A stretch of 64,000 nucleotides of DNA from Haloglomus salinum (GTDB taxonomy: Archaea > Halobacteriota > Halobacteria > Halobacteriales > Haloarculaceae), in NCBI RefSeq assembly GCF_024298825.1, contig NZ_CP101153.1:1984001-2048000 (forward strand). The letters are read 5' to 3'. The notes under the pieces are model-generated. The model searched no databases. It was not told where the DNA came from and worked only from the letters and a program-made list of their open reading frames with translations. Of this stretch, positions 55,152-61,129 are shown one piece after another; the first letter of the stretch is position 1, and each line of letters begins with the position of its first letter. Made by a program: the position numbers and the translations under genes.

Positions 55152-55721
55152 TCACGAGTCGGCCGAGTTCCCGAGCAACGGGCGGAGCAGCAGCCCCCGA
55201 TAGTGCAACAGCTGGTAGATCGTCGAGAGCGCGAACAGGACGAGGAACCCGTTGGCCCAGGCGAGTGCCGGAACGGCCGAAACGACCGGGAACCCGCCGG
55301 CCGACAGGGTGACGAGCACCAGGGCGAGGGTCCCGAGAAGGCGGTAGTACTCCTCCCAGGTGATTCCGGTCCCGGAGATCGCCGCGAGATGGCGGCCGAC
55401 GTGAGGCGCACCGCTGCACGGGACCACCTCCTTGCGGTCGCGGTCGTACTCCACGACGTCGTGCTCGGCCAGCGTGGGCAGGTGGGTCTGATGGAGCGAG
55501 ATGTACACCGCCTCCCGGACGTCACGGGGTGGCGGTGTCTCGCCGGTCTCCCGTGCCGCGACCACCTCCGAGAGGGCCCGGACGGTGGTCGGCCCCCACG
55601 ACGTTCCGAGGTGATGGAGTGTCGCTCGTCGCCGAGGATTGCGGAGGATGTGGTGGAGATCGTCGTCGCTCAGCGTCGGCCGACCGCGAAGCGAGAGCCT
55701 GGATTCGGTGTTGGTGGACAT
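55152..55721 (-). CDS. DUF7344-type winged-helix regulator with two membrane segments
   Basis: A 189-aa protein. Residues ~15-110 form a winged helix of the DUF7344 type: LSDDDLHHILRNPRRRATLHHLGT, VREAVYISLHQTHLPTLAEHDVVEYDRDRKEVV. Then two membrane helices (LLGTLALVLVTLSAGGFPVV; WANGFLVLFALSTIYQLLHY). The combination of a DNA-binding domain and membrane anchor suggests a membrane-bound regulator. It is divergent from the SipW-type cluster, 386 bp from its first gene, and the family is also represented at the far end of that cluster (60563-61129). Confidence 0.85.
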   Translation of the reverse strand: MSTNTESRLSLRGRPTLSDDDLHHILRNPRRRATLHHLGTSWGPTTVRALSEVVAARETGETPPPRDVREAVYISLHQTHLPTLAEHDVVEYDRDRKEVVPCSGAPHVGRHLAAISGTGITWEEYYRLLGTLALVLVTLSAGGFPVVSAVPALAWANGFLVLFALSTIYQLLHYRGLLLRPLLGNSADS

Positions 55722-56107
55722 GGTGTTTCACACGGGAGCGCGCCGGGTGGGCCACGACCGTGGGGGGACCGGCCGGAGCCCACCGAGGGCGCGTTGGAGC
55801 CGTGCGGTGCAGGGGTGGTATGTATGAGCCGGATACCCCGGCGCCGAGGTACCGCTCGTCTGAACCTGGCCGCCGCATCACCGGCTGGGGAATACGTCCC
55901 GATTGTCTCGGATAACTGTCACTTAACCGTAGGGTCCTCCCTGTTCAGTCCGTGGTTAAAATCCTCGCGATAGCGTCTAATCCGGGGCTAGAACCCCGAT
56001 AGGCTCGCGATAGGGGGTGTCAAAGCGACTCATAGGTAACCATCCCCCTCTGCAAGGGGTTCTCACCCGGTCGGGGTCCCCGCACGGGCCGGACCGGGGG
56101 AGAAACC
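55722..56107 (+). promoter_or_regulatory. Intergenic control region and structured leader before the SipW cluster
   Basis: The region holds a TATA-like GGTTAAAATCC (55954-55964) upstream of the first SipW-type gene, and a GTTAAGT-like element for the divergent regulator. Downstream of the box, three stems lie in the transcribed leader: CGGGG/CCCCG (55983-55998), CCCCT/AGGGG (56045-56059), and CCCGGTC/GACCGGG (56066-56072 and 56092-56098). The last stem encloses GGGGTCCCC and ends ten bases before the ATG. No gene is visible here. Confidence 0.65.
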
Positions 56108-57118
56108 ATGTCCAACGAACGAATCCGCATCTCCCGGCGCAAAGCACTCGTCGGGCTCGGTTCGATCGGCCTCGCGTCCGCGGGCGCCGGTCTCGGCACG
56201 TATGCACAGTTCACAGACCAGGAGGAGCAGTCGGTCACCTTCACCGCAGGTGGCGTCGACGGCAAGCTCAGCTGGGGCGCCAGCTACAACAAGAATCAGG
56301 TGGCAGACGAGCTGACCAACGTCGAGGTCACCGACACCGCCGCGGGCGTCGCATTCAACCTGACGGACGTCAAGCCCGGCGATTACGGTTCCATCACGTT
56401 CGAGCTGGAGGTCACGAACAATCCGGCGTGGGTGTCCTCGTGTGTCGGCTACGCGAACGACATCGACGGCCGGACGTTCGAGCCGGAGGTCGAGGCCGAC
56501 GACGACCTCGACGGCTCGGAGACTGACCCGGTCCAGAACCATCCCCACGGCGAACTGGCCGACAACCTGCTCATCATCCCGTTCTACTCGGACGGACCGA
56601 ACACGTTCTTCGACGACAACGGCACGCCTGGCGAGCCGGACGGCGACTGGACGCCCGGCGATATGGGCGTCTACGGCAACGGGACCACCGCGGCGTTCTG
56701 GAACAGTCGCGAGGGAACGAACGACTTCGGTGACCTCCAGCCACGGACGCTCCACGACGTGGCAACGGGTGCGAGTTCGAAGAACACGATCCTCTGGAAC
56801 GAGGACGACGGTCTCGTTGTCATCCCTGGCCCGGAGGACGCCTCGGTGGAGAGCGGTTGTGTGGTACTGGACGGGGACGCCGAGGACGACTCCAACACCT
56901 ACGACGACGAGCGCGAGGCGTCGCCGCTGGAGCCCGACGACACGCTCAACTTCGGCTACGACTGGCACCTCCCCTACACGGCGGGGAACGCCCTGCAGGG
57001 CGACAGCGTGACGATGAAGCTCGGGTTCACGTTCAGCCAGGTCCGCCACTCCGACGCGCCGCAGTTCCAGAACAGCTACGATCCGGGGAACTACACGCCG
57101 AACGACGATTCGAGCTGA
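56108..57118 (+). CDS. SipW-dependent-type secreted protein, TasA/camelysin-like
   Basis: A 336-aa protein. The N-terminus RISRRKALVGLGSIGLASAGAGLGTYAQFTD is a signal of the SipW-dependent type, ending in a cleavage region before a F-T-D-x-E motif. The body has LTDVKPGDYGSITFELEVTNNPAWVSSCV, DNLLIIPFYSDGPNTFF and DDTLNFGYDWHLPYTAGN, the pattern of TasA/CalY-like beta-sandwich proteins. Only two cysteines. In bacteria such proteins form matrix fibres after cleavage by SipW. It leads a same-direction set ending with the signal peptidase gene. Confidence 0.85.
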   Translation: MSNERIRISRRKALVGLGSIGLASAGAGLGTYAQFTDQEEQSVTFTAGGVDGKLSWGASYNKNQVADELTNVEVTDTAAGVAFNLTDVKPGDYGSITFELEVTNNPAWVSSCVGYANDIDGRTFEPEVEADDDLDGSETDPVQNHPHGELADNLLIIPFYSDGPNTFFDDNGTPGEPDGDWTPGDMGVYGNGTTAAFWNSREGTNDFGDLQPRTLHDVATGASSKNTILWNEDDGLVVIPGPEDASVESGCVVLDGDAEDDSNTYDDEREASPLEPDDTLNFGYDWHLPYTAGNALQGDSVTMKLGFTFSQVRHSDAPQFQNSYDPGNYTPNDDSS

Positions 57119-57305
57119 TTCGCTCGCAGAACCGTGCTCACCGGGCGAGCTGCGCCGACTGCCGGCCATCCCCCGTCGACACTCGCGGGACCGTCCGGGC
57201 ACGTCCTGACCTCGATCGATCCGCCGTTGGCGGCCAGGCGGTCTCCTACCGCCCCCCATCGACACAAATGCGCGGTGACGCCACGAACGCCTCCGTAACT
57301 ACCAT

Positions 57306-58433
57306 ATGACCGACGACGACGCACCCCTTCGACGTGACGTACTGCTCGCGCTCAGCGCAACCGGCGCGGCCACCGCCGGCGCCGGCGTGGGGAGTCTCGC
57401 CGCCTTCGCGGACCGCGAGGGGACGGCCGCGTCGTTCCAGGCGGGGGGTGTCGACCTCGTGGTCCACTACAAGGGGAACGACGAGACGGTGACCGTCGAC
57501 AGCGGCGGGGTCGGCGACGGCCCCGAGTTCACGCTCCCGGACCCGACGGAGTCGACGCCGACGGAGGCGAAGTTCTGCTTCGAACTGCAGGGGAACCCGG
57601 CGTACATCTGGCTCTGTCCCGGTATCGACCTCGACCTGTGTTCGGATGCCGACGCCGACGGGGACGGACCCCTCGACGAGGTCGGCGAGACGGTCGACGG
57701 GACGCTGGGCGAGCTAGCCGAGGCGCTGGACCTGTCGCTGGCGTACTGCGACGTGGACGCCTCGGAGCCGGAGACGATACCGACCGGCTCGCTCTGCGAG
57801 TTCCTCGGCCAGTACGCGGGCGGGTTCCCCCTCGACGGGAACGCCCGGCCGGCCCCGGCGCCGGGCTCCCAGGCGCCGTTCCAGCCGGACGCGCCCGGCT
57901 CGAACCCCTGTCTCTGCCTGAGCCTCTCGGTAACTGGCGACCTGCCGCTGGAGCTGGGCGCCGTCGACCTGGGGCTCAACCTCCGGTTCCACGCGGTCCA
58001 GGCCCGGCACAACGACGGCGAGACGGGACCCTGTGCGACGCTGGAGCCGCCGGAGCCGGCGCCCGACCCGACACCGACCCCGGAGCCCGCCAGCGGTATC
58101 AGCTTCGTCGCGTTCTGCAACTCTGCGGGGACCCTGAGCGAGGACGATGTCCTGTCGCTCGATGTCAGCCACGAGGGCGGAACGCCGGCGCTGACGTGGG
58201 CAACCGAGACCGATGTCGAGCACGTGGTCCTCAAGAGCGGGGTCGGCCCGGGCGGGGTCAAGGCGAATCCGGACCGCGGGATGGAGGTGTTCCACTACCC
58301 GGACGGGGCACGCAGTGGGACGGTCCGGGTCGGGAAGGGGGACTCGCTGGCCGATTCAGAGGAGTCGGCGCCCTGTCCCGAAGGCGAGACGGGTGTCAAG
58401 ATAGACGACGACCAGTTCGACCAGTACCAATGA
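57306..58433 (+). CDS. SipW-type secreted protein, cysteine-rich
   Basis: A 375-aa protein. The N-terminus RRDVLLALSATGAATAGAGVGSLAAFADRE is a SipW-type signal. FCFELQGNPAYIWLCPGIDLDLC and a long Asp/Glu/Pro-rich middle follow. The C-terminal part has FVAFCNSAGTLSEDDVLSLDVSHEGG and VFHYPDGARSGTVRVGKGDS. Ten cysteines (an even number), rare for haloarchaea, suggest five disulfides outside the cell. A Pro/Glu stretch (EPPEPAPDPTPTPEP) separates two domains. It is probably the second substrate of the neighbouring peptidase. Confidence 0.82.
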   Translation: MTDDDAPLRRDVLLALSATGAATAGAGVGSLAAFADREGTAASFQAGGVDLVVHYKGNDETVTVDSGGVGDGPEFTLPDPTESTPTEAKFCFELQGNPAYIWLCPGIDLDLCSDADADGDGPLDEVGETVDGTLGELAEALDLSLAYCDVDASEPETIPTGSLCEFLGQYAGGFPLDGNARPAPAPGSQAPFQPDAPGSNPCLCLSLSVTGDLPLELGAVDLGLNLRFHAVQARHNDGETGPCATLEPPEPAPDPTPTPEPASGISFVAFCNSAGTLSEDDVLSLDVSHEGGTPALTWATETDVEHVVLKSGVGPGGVKANPDRGMEVFHYPDGARSGTVRVGKGDSLADSEESAPCPEGETGVKIDDDQFDQYQ

Positions 58434-58497
58434 CACGACCACACGTACGGCCGACGCCGGAGCGAACGCACACACGACCGGCCGCGGGGCACGACCC

Positions 58498-59865
58498 ATG
58501 AGCGACCGGTCCGACACCGACGCGGCGAGGAGTGGGAGCAGCGACGCGACCGACGACGAGGCGACCGACGACGAGGCGACCGATGCGAGGCCGTGGCCGT
58601 CCGACCGCGGGTCGCTCCCGCTCCGGCGGCTGTTCGACGTCCTGCTCGTGGTGGCACTCGTGGCGGTGGTCGTCCCCTTTGCCGTCTACGCCGCCCCCTC
58701 GCTGGTCGGCGCGGATGAGAGCTACATCGTCCGGAGCGGCAGTATGGAGCCGGCCATCGGGACCGGCGACGTGGTGCTCGTAGAGCGGGCCACGCCCGCG
58801 GATATCGAGACCGGCGATGTCATCACGTTCGTGCCGGACGGCCAGCCCCCGCCAACCACCCACCGCGTCGTCGCGAAGACCGAGGAGGACGGAGTGGTCC
58901 GCTTCACCACCAAGGGTGACGCCAACGAGGCTCCCGACTCCGAGCCGGTCGTCGAGACCGAACTCGTCGGGGAGGTGACGCTGGTGCTGCCGTACATCGG
59001 CTACGTCGTCTCGTTCGCGAGCACCTCGACCGGGTTCTTCGTGCTCGTCGCCGCCCCGTTCGGCCTCCTCCTCGCGACCGAGGTGTGGGCGGTGTTCTGG
59101 GAGGACGACGATAGCGACAGTGGTGACGCCGGCAGCGCGCCGGAGCCGTCACCGGGCGCCTCGTCCGGAGCTGCCGGTGACGACGAGGCGGCCTACACGC
59201 TGTCCCCGACTGACATCCGGCTCTCGCTGGTCGTCCTCCTCGTGCTCACCGGCTACAGCAGTTTCGTGGCGATCCGCCGGCCGACGCCGTGGTCCATCGC
59301 GGTCGCGGTCGGCGCCTTCGGGACAGCGGTCTACCTGGCCGCGATGCGCTATGCTGCGGTGACCGAGACGGGCTCCGGCGGTCCCGCTGTGGCGACGCCG
59401 CCACCCACCCGTGAGGTGACCCCCTCCGGCAGCGACGGCGGCTACGGGTTCGAGGCACCTGGCGACGCGCTCGGGGTCAGAGTGCTCCCGGTGTCGCTCC
59501 TCGCCTCGATCGAACCCACCGCTCGCGAGGGGAACGGCCACCTGAAGCAGTCTCACGAGGCGGCGCCGGACCCGGACTCGTCGGATTCGGACCCGGCGGA
59601 TGCGGACCCGCCGGACCTGGGCCCGTCGGACGGCTCGACCGAGGATGCGGCGGGGCCGACCGACACGGCGGAGTCAGGCGACGGCGCGGATGAGTCGGCG
59701 ACCGACGACGACAGCCGGGGCGCCCTCGATACGCTCACCGAGTCGGTCGTGGTCCGGCCGGTCGTCCGATTCCTGTACGCGGTCGGCTACGTGGAGGTCG
59801 CCGCGGTCCGTGCCGTCCTCCGTGGTCTCGGGCTGCGGTCATCCGACGACGGGGGTGAGAGCTGA
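58498..59865 (+). CDS. Signal peptidase I, SipW/ER-type, with C-terminal membrane extension
   Basis: A 455-aa membrane enzyme. Hydrophobic segment ~48-68, then the catalytic Ser82 in VRSGSMEPAIGTGD, His122 in PTTHRVVAK and Asp141 in TTKGDANEAPDSEPV. The Ser-His-Asp arrangement is that of archaeal/eukaryotic ER-type (Sec11/SipW) peptidases rather than Ser-Lys. More membrane segments follow (FFVLVAAPFGLLLATEVW; LSLVVLLVLTGYSSFVAI; IAVAVGAFGTAVYLAAM). A long acidic tail with a C-terminal helix completes it. It likely processes the SipW-type proteins upstream. The start at 58498 is an ATG; the N-terminus is a hydrophilic Asp/Ala run. Confidence 0.93.
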   Translation: MSDRSDTDAARSGSSDATDDEATDDEATDARPWPSDRGSLPLRRLFDVLLVVALVAVVVPFAVYAAPSLVGADESYIVRSGSMEPAIGTGDVVLVERATPADIETGDVITFVPDGQPPPTTHRVVAKTEEDGVVRFTTKGDANEAPDSEPVVETELVGEVTLVLPYIGYVVSFASTSTGFFVLVAAPFGLLLATEVWAVFWEDDDSDSGDAGSAPEPSPGASSGAAGDDEAAYTLSPTDIRLSLVVLLVLTGYSSFVAIRRPTPWSIAVAVGAFGTAVYLAAMRYAAVTETGSGGPAVATPPPTREVTPSGSDGGYGFEAPGDALGVRVLPVSLLASIEPTAREGNGHLKQSHEAAPDPDSSDSDPADADPPDLGPSDGSTEDAAGPTDTAESGDGADESATDDDSRGALDTLTESVVVRPVVRFLYAVGYVEVAAVRAVLRGLGLRSSDDGGES

Positions 59866-59866
59866 G

Positions 59867-60430
59867 ATGTCTCTCCGTCGAGGGGTGCGGCTCGGCGTCA
59901 CGCTCGGGCTCGCCGTCGTCGTGCTGTCGGGTGCCGGCGTTCCCCAGCCGACGGTCGGGGTGTTCCACGACGTCGAGGAGGCCGGCGTGTCCGTCTCGGT
60001 CTCCGTCTCGGATCCCCTTTCGACATCTGAGACCGGGGGACCGTCGCTGCAGAGCGCCGATACGACGACGCCCGTCCCGACGCCAACGGATAACACGTCG
60101 TCCACGCCCGTCACTCCGGAACCGCGCTCGACCGCGACACCGACGGCCGCCAACGATACGGCGACGACGCCGGCGGCTACCGGAACGTCGACCGCCACAT
60201 CCACCGACACATCGACACCGACACCGACGGCTACCGATACACCGACGCCGTCGCCGACTGCTGAGTCCACTGCGACGTCGACAGCGGCGCCGACGGCCAC
60301 TCCGGAACCGACCGCAGAACCGACTCCGGAACCGACCGCGACTGCCGAGCCCACCGATACGTCGACATCGCCGCCGCCCGAGGAGACCGCGACGGATACC
60401 TCCGGGTCCGAGTCCACGACGCCCACGTGA
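59867..60430 (+). CDS. Secreted Thr/Pro-rich protein with SipW-like signal remnant
   Basis: A 187-aa protein. Residues 1-27 form a signal (GVRLGVTLGLAVVVLSGAGV), followed by VGVFHDVEEAGVSVSVSVSDP. The F-x-D-x-E pattern recalls the region after SipW cleavage sites. The remainder is almost entirely Thr/Pro/Ala/Glu/Ser, mucin-like, with no C-terminal anchor (no PGF-CTERM). The start overlaps the peptidase gene closely (1 bp gap from its stop). It could be a glycosylated linker or fibre component. Codon use stays haloarchaeal. Confidence 0.75.
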   Translation: MSLRRGVRLGVTLGLAVVVLSGAGVPQPTVGVFHDVEEAGVSVSVSVSDPLSTSETGGPSLQSADTTTPVPTPTDNTSSTPVTPEPRSTATPTAANDTATTPAATGTSTATSTDTSTPTPTATDTPTPSPTAESTATSTAAPTATPEPTAEPTPEPTATAEPTDTSTSPPPEETATDTSGSESTTPT

Positions 60431-60562
60431 TCGGCGGTGACCGGTGGGGCCACAAAATGGGCCGTGTGGTTTCGGGGCCATCTTCTTTGTCCCATGCTCA
60501 CAATCGGGAAATCACTGACCCAGTATTCAGTGCGTGCTGGGGGGCACGCCAGGGGGGAACGC

Positions 60563-61129
60563 ATGAGTGTCTCTACAGCCAGCAACGGCGGGGTATCAGA
60601 GGAGGAGCGTAGCGAGGACGAACCACTGTCGACCGGCGACATCTACTTCACGCTGAGCAACTGCCGCCGTCGGTTCCTCATCCAGTATCTCTCGCGACAG
60701 GAGTCGATGTCGGTCACGGAGCTGTCGCGGGTCATCGCGGCGTGGGAGAACGAGACGACGGTCGAGGAACTGTCGTACGACGAGCGAAAGACCGTCTACA
60801 CCGCGCTCCTCCAGACACATCTCCCGAAGCTCGACGAGATGGGCGTCGTCGAGTACGATGCCTCGCGCAAGCACGTCAGGCTCACCGACCGGGCCGAGCA
60901 GCTCCGGCCGTATCTGGAGCTCGACCGGGAGGGGACGGACGGCGACGATGCGATCCCCTACGGGTTACTTGTCTGGGTGCTGCTCGGGGTCGCCGTGTCC
61001 GGGGTCCTGCTCGGCCGGTACTCCGTGGCCGGACTGGAGGGCGCACTGCTCACCGCGCTCTCGTTCGGTGTCGCCGCGGGCGTCTCGGTCGGCTTCGTGC
61101 TGGCCGCCACCGAGACCGTGAGCGAGTAG
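60563..61129 (+). CDS. DUF7344-type winged-helix regulator with two membrane segments, second copy
   Basis: A 188-aa protein of the same family as 55152-55721: LSTGDIYFTLSNCRRRFLIQYLS, VEELSYDERKTVYTALLQTHLPKLDEMGVVEYDASRKHVRLT, then two membrane helices (GLLVWVLLGVAVSGVLLG; LLTALSFGVAAGVSVGFVLAA). Motifs are conserved between copies (YTALLQTHLPKL, VEYDASRK). It follows the SipW set in the same direction after 132 bp. A membrane-tethered transcription regulator is plausible; the target is unknown. Confidence 0.87.
   Translation: MSVSTASNGGVSEEERSEDEPLSTGDIYFTLSNCRRRFLIQYLSRQESMSVTELSRVIAAWENETTVEELSYDERKTVYTALLQTHLPKLDEMGVVEYDASRKHVRLTDRAEQLRPYLELDREGTDGDDAIPYGLLVWVLLGVAVSGVLLGRYSVAGLEGALLTALSFGVAAGVSVGFVLAATETVSE

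Follow-up and report, generated by a model that had tools for sequence, protein, structure and literature searches.

A candidate TasA-type surface-fibre module with twin-arginine signals, a SipW-like signal peptidase and a divergent DUF7344 gene in the haloarchaeon Haloglomus salinum

We analyzed a 64,000-nucleotide stretch of the Haloglomus salinum genome (the window, C1:1984001-2048000 of a 4.19 Mb single-contig genome), in which a first-pass annotation had described, at 55152-61129, a cluster of SipW-type secreted proteins and a signal peptidase flanked by DUF7344 proteins. All six genes were confirmed there (Table 1): two TasA-like secreted proteins (SUB1 and SUB2), an endoplasmic reticulum (ER)-type signal peptidase (PEP), a small Thr/Pro-rich protein, and a DUF7344 protein at each end. 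The locus of Haloglomus halophilum holds the same genes in identical order, and comparison with it indicates purifying selection on all six, with ratios of nonsynonymous to synonymous substitution (dN/dS) of 0.12-0.44. The intergenic gaps from SUB1 onward measure 187, 64, 1, and 132 nt, which would allow a single transcript starting at SUB1. The divergent intergenic region upstream of SUB1 is highly similar in H. halophilum, with conserved blocks. A direct repeat in this region, CTCGCGATAG, was considered as an operator and dropped, as it is neither kept in H. halophilum nor found in the paralogous modules described below; a scan for sigma-70 promoters carries no information in archaea.

Table 1. 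Features of the cluster and of related loci; positions are those of the window unless prefixed by a contig (C1) or a named locus (L)
Feature	Position	Strand	Description
DUF7344_A	55152..55721	-	winged-helix protein, C-terminal hydrophobic helix/helices; divergent from operon; PF24035 E 1.8e-27; dN/dS 0.12
Divergent intergenic region, 386 nt	55722..56107		presumed to hold both promoters
SUB1	56108..57118	+	TasA-like secreted protein; twin-arginine SipW-type signal (SRRKALVGLG...GTYA/QFTDQEE)
SUB2	57306..58433	+	Cys-rich (10 Cys) TasA-like protein, extra C-terminal beta domain; directly before peptidase
PEP	58498..59865	+	ER-type (S26B) signal peptidase, Ser82/His122/Asp141, long C-terminal extension
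Small Thr/Pro-rich protein	59867..60430	+	third candidate substrate; SipW-type motif TVGVFHDVEE; dN/dS 0.37
DUF7344_B	60563..61129	+	second winged-helix protein, co-directional, two hydrophobic helices; PF24035 E 2.7e-27
SUB2 counterparts	L006:7778-8764; L007:6035-7219		
SipW clusters of the genome	window; C1:1146214-1153564; C1:1808434-1812885		
Second locus type	L097:3681-12211 (also L096, L098, L099)		DUF7344, pilin, CARDB protein, 390-aa signal peptidase, DUF5305 protein

The peptidase matches the archaeal signal peptidase I model TIGR02228 at 116.7 bits (cut-off 51.85) and human SEC11C at 2e-12. The proposed catalytic residues Ser82, His122, and Asp141 sit within RSGSMEP, PTTHRVV, and TKGDANE, respectively, and are invariant in an alignment of three paralogous peptidases; together with the two matches, this bears out the earlier assignment to the ER-type family. 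The C-terminal extension contributes two further hydrophobic helices. Against NF046067, the model for Bacillus SipW, the protein scores 100.8 bits, under the cut-off of 190.

The SipW-type signal model TIGR04088 (cut-off 19 bits) recognizes SUB1 at 25.7 bits, and SUB2 at 20.6 bits in the genome scan and at 16.8 bits, under the cut-off, when searched as a protein; the claim of two SipW-type secreted proteins thus stands, for SUB2 through the genome scan. The small protein after the peptidase, listed earlier only as a Thr/Pro-rich secreted protein, is present as described and also has a SipW-type motif, though a weak one (13.6 bits, compared with 32.8 bits for its paralogue). A strongly hydrophobic signal is followed by a tail containing 34% Thr and 18% Pro, which is probably disordered, and a scan of the family library assigned this protein to no family over cut-off. 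By their signals, three proteins in the window are therefore candidate substrates.

Across the genome, TIGR04088 yields 12 matches, 9 of them over cut-off and all within three clusters, and the genome's three strong signal peptidase I matches are located inside these clusters or at their ends. The three modules share one plan, in which a divergent DUF7344 gene is followed by TasA-like genes, a peptidase with a C-terminal extension, and a small SipW-type protein whose tail is probably disordered. The TasA-like genes number two in the window and four and six in the other modules, the last one being Cys-rich, and the peptidases of those two modules share 40-41% identity with that of the window. 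The cluster had been called self-contained: each module does have a dedicated-looking peptidase gene, but the cluster is not unique, since two paralogous modules stand elsewhere in the genome. Sister substrates carry fused vWA, laminin B and, by eye, beta-helix domains. These TasA-like proteins (L006:10975-12615, L007:11192-12916, L007:8247-9593, and L006:9075-10877) have a vWA domain inserted into the TasA-like core, or laminin-B or beta-helix-like domains at the C-terminus; the vWA and laminin-B fusions fit a surface role. Immediately ahead of the peptidase there is often a gene for a Cys-rich protein (8-18 Cys) that bears an additional domain at its C-terminus, as at 57306-58433 in the window and at L006, L007, L014, L016, L021, and L050 (in L014 this domain is DUF7467); this protein may be a cap or a minor subunit linked by disulfides.

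To compare the secreted proteins with known structures, we used sequence profiles and AlphaFold2 models. A profile of 61 SUB1 relatives searched against the PDB returned TasA first (5of1, E 0.0099; 8aur, E 0.011), with the whole core aligned, while a 12-sequence profile returned AbpX first (E 0.0088). The models of SUB1 (predicted local distance difference test, pLDDT, 70; predicted template modelling score, pTM, 0.71) and SUB2 (pLDDT 70.8, pTM 0.55) were searched against 350,542 PDB chains. For both, the TasA fibre 8aur ranked first, with probabilities of 0.94 and 0.93, and the next-ranked matches reached 0.14 and 0.11, respectively; the highest other probability among the matches listed for SUB2 was 0.69. 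A viral fold search gave no match. These modelling results suggest a TasA-type fold for both proteins.

Haloarchaea use the twin-arginine translocation (Tat) pathway heavily, and the arginine pair in the signals may reflect this general habit of the lineage. All 12 substrates encoded in this genome share the pair. For the named loci introduced below, we applied a profile that omits the signal region, to avoid circularity, and, among substrates in which the cleavage landmark could be recognized, found an arginine pair upstream of it in 107 of 115 haloarchaeal proteins versus 2 of 31 non-haloarchaeal ones; the pair lies 22-23 residues before the landmark in 97 cases, and several of the eight haloarchaeal substrates without it have mis-set landmarks. 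The hydrophobic (h-) region is milder and rich in Ala and Gly (median hydrophobicity 1.63, Ala+Gly 0.50) relative to the non-haloarchaeal proteins (2.39 and 0.33); among this genome's small tail proteins, signal hydrophobicity is strong, at 2.2-2.8. The substrates combine the motif RR-polar-x-[ILVMF] with a mildly hydrophobic h-region in a genome that encodes Tat machinery, TatC genes included; SUB2 has a hydrophobic residue ahead of the pair, and a strict Tat rule would reject it. The signals suggest that haloarchaeal substrates are exported folded via Tat, so that fibre-type subunits may cross the membrane in the folded state.

The gene order recurs widely. A search with the peptidase alignment gave 80 named loci, whose open frames were classed with profiles built from this genome, a long peptidase being a frame of 270 aa or more from stop to stop. 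Among the 46 haloarchaeal loci, 31 are of the long-peptidase and 15 of the short-peptidase type. The long-type loci have a median of five TasA-like substrates per run, and DUF7344 is present in 26 of the 31 and stands divergently, immediately upstream of the first substrate, in 24, so that the order proposed for comparison with other haloarchaea is kept in many of them. The expected number of DUF7344 genes is ~0.08 per locus (486 genes in ~129 Mb from 40 relatives); we attach no P value to this linkage because the loci are not independent. In a simple pattern search made with no shuffled control, a small SipW-type protein follows the peptidase in 22 of the 31 loci, with tails mostly rich in T/P/S/D/E. 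The short-peptidase haloarchaeal loci (15 of 46, within L014-L093) have one or two substrates, usually without DUF7344, which occupies the divergent upstream place in 2 of 15. In Patescibacteria and other bacteria (L048-L092), many Candidate Phyla Radiation genomes place a gene for a SipW-like peptidase right after a TasA-like gene, whose signal is Sec-like and lacks the arginine pair.

Both flanking genes of the window match PF24035 (DUF7344) at 96.0 and 95.4 bits, far over the gathering cut-off of 27.8, in agreement with the description of one divergent and one co-directional DUF7344 protein. Two membrane helices had been assigned to each; this holds for DUF7344_B, while the second helix of DUF7344_A falls below the threshold used. 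Twelve DUF7344 matches occur in the genome, five of them beside the three SipW clusters; one copy (L013:2735-3112) lies within a low-GC3 (third-codon-position GC) stretch of the same genome, as of a mobile element. In a tree of 56 DUF7344 proteins, a single group of 28 rows (support 91/89, not starred) takes in 27 of the divergent neighbours. DUF7344_A belongs to this module-adjacent group, which consists almost wholly of divergent neighbours. DUF7344_B clusters solely with its H. halophilum orthologue outside the group, and second copies, unrelated copies, and copies from the loci of a solved pilin (9p0a, discussed below) are mostly on the other side of the tree. Many modules have two DUF7344 genes, usually both upstream. 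Because of this grouping, and because DUF7344_B was matched only within the genus, we regard the divergent DUF7344 gene as the conserved element and the bracketing of the cluster by paired regulators, proposed earlier as a trait of the module, as a local feature.

In Bacillus subtilis, SipW strips the signals from TasA and TapA, TasA fibres assemble by donor-strand exchange, and TasA-related fibres have been noted in archaea (PMC9674648). The module resembles tapA-sipW-tasA in encoding an ER-type signal peptidase together with TasA-like substrates, in the A-x-F-x-D processing site, and in having a minor partner protein whose signal is of the same type. It differs in its twin-arginine signals, in the divergent TasA-like subunits, which number 2-6 per module and include forms with fused domains, in the long C-terminal extension of the peptidase, and in its candidate regulator, a membrane-tethered DUF7344 protein in place of the Bacillus SinR, which was not looked for here. 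The archaeal bundling pili, AbpA of Pyrobaculum calidifontis and AbpX (9sj2/9rhp), are likewise TasA-related archaeal fibre proteins, AbpX being the best PDB match of the smaller profile, but their similarity to the window proteins is only remote (E 0.009). The bacterial SipW/TasA-like pairs noted above also place substrate genes directly before the peptidase; their signals are Sec-like without the arginine pair, their peptidase is as a rule short, and no DUF7344 was found with them. Judged by its anatomy, the module is best seen as a haloarchaeal form of the TasA/SipW system with Tat-type signals; formal membership is less certain, because the TasA-type fold is only suggested and the Bacillus equivalog cut-offs are not reached (for TasA, NF046066, 15.3 bits against 450).

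Our favoured interpretation, which we consider probable, is that this is one of three paralogous modules for a Tat-exported, SipW-processed TasA-type fibre under a membrane-tethered regulator. The TasA/camelysin-like subunits (56108 and 57306) would be exported folded through Tat and kept tethered to the membrane by the signal helix until the module's Sec11/SipW-type peptidase (58498) cuts at A-x-F-x-D-x-E, releasing the N-terminus of the mature protein. If TasA and AbpA are a guide, the freed N-terminal segment would act as a donor strand completing the neighbouring subunit, and cleavage would in this way license polymerization. The Cys-rich subunit beside the peptidase and the Thr/Pro-tailed protein (59867), whose signal is more Sec-like, would contribute in minor ways, possibly as a cap and as an anchor or a stalk spanning the surface (S-) layer, and the divergent DUF7344 protein would regulate the operon. 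A more detailed version is tentative and on balance rather doubtful: a donor-strand fibre of subunits folded in the cytoplasm, with a membrane-held donor segment, the peptidase as polymerization switch, and DUF7344 sensing the state of the surface or envelope to set expression of exchangeable, domain-decorated subunits.

Several results weigh against the fibre interpretation. The TasA likeness is remote (profile E ~0.01, model pLDDT ~70), and template modelling (TM) scores of 0.21-0.42 fall short of the usual 0.5; TasA ranks first for both proteins, as the comparison proposed with TasA and AbpA had anticipated, but because the TM-scores are low the overall TasA-type fold is suggested rather than proven. 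An hhalign comparison with a single TasA sequence covers one strand only (9% probability) and was not used as support. No homologue of the TapA companion exceeds the cut-off, the best being the small protein of L006 (11.7 bits vs. 80), and the Thr/Pro-rich protein of the window is under the SipW-signal cut-off. Finally, a search of open-access papers found no experimental work on these genes; it also found no publication on haloarchaeal SipW/TasA modules or DUF7344. The proposal of a complete regulated surface-fibre module is thus upheld in its gene order, its TasA likeness, and a peptidase for each module, but not in its regulator pair, and we infer fibres, cleavage, and regulation.

The strongest competing view, which we hold unlikely, is that the substrates are TasA-fold surface proteins processed by the module peptidase that do not polymerize, such as adhesins or S-layer decorations. 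Their large size variation and the vWA, laminin-B, and beta-helix domains fused to sister subunits would suit such a role; on the other hand, the closest solved relatives, TasA and AbpX, are fibre proteins, and each module includes simpler subunits of ~300 aa such as SUB1. We give much less weight to the idea that PEP serves as a general signal peptidase and is located here by chance, with a housekeeping Sec11 cutting the SipW-type proteins. Although PEP does score as an archaeal signal peptidase I, and weaker signal-peptidase matches exist apart from the clusters (C1:1519672-1520646), every SipW cluster in the genome has a peptidase gene, no SipW-type signal occurs away from one, and the linkage of substrate and peptidase recurs in haloarchaea and Patescibacteria. 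That the secreted proteins are camelysin-type metallo-endopeptidases is very improbable, and we rejected this identity: the Peptidase_M73 match (PF12389) is weak, at 17.1 bits under the gathering score of 22.5, and is confined to residues 21-53 over the signal region, and HExxH occurs in 0 of 203 substrates, a check to which other kinds of zinc motif are invisible.

A second locus type (L096-L099) also joins DUF7344 to a signal peptidase, and its pilin in L097 is nearly identical to the PDB entry 9p0a "Pilin" (E 7e-118) and related, under their cut-offs, to the NCBIfam families TafE and TafA. The window module might accordingly be read as a pilus of the 9p0a/Taf kind, since DUF7344, a Tat-like signal, and a companion peptidase are common to both, and hhalign aligns the signal region, with its related twin-arginine pattern, to a 9p0a-like pilin (E 2.4e-6). 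We consider this improbable, if slightly less so than a chance placement of the peptidase: the alignment is confined to the signal, the weak TafA match reaches 13.8 bits against a cut-off of 190 (NF052520/NF052522), and searching the genome for TafA/TafE at E values as high as 1 gave no match. In addition, the 9p0a-type loci lack a run of substrates and have DUF5305 and CARDB companion genes, their peptidase is missed by the window peptidase profile, and the mature domains are dissimilar by the tests made, those of the window matching TasA and not 9p0a in the fold search. A peptidase and DUF7344 beside a pilin of solved structure nevertheless set a precedent, which supports the regulator-peptidase-fibre interpretation and lowers its novelty. 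Several surface-protein loci equipped with a peptidase may be recognizable by a DUF7344 gene.

If the fibre interpretation is correct, the TasA/SipW paradigm would reach a widespread type of haloarchaeal operon, and DUF7344 would gain a testable role. It would also raise the question of how a fibre made in bacteria from subunits with Sec-like signals could be assembled from subunits that apparently leave the cell folded, via Tat. Three modules with different fused domains in one genome suggest a toolkit of surface fibres.

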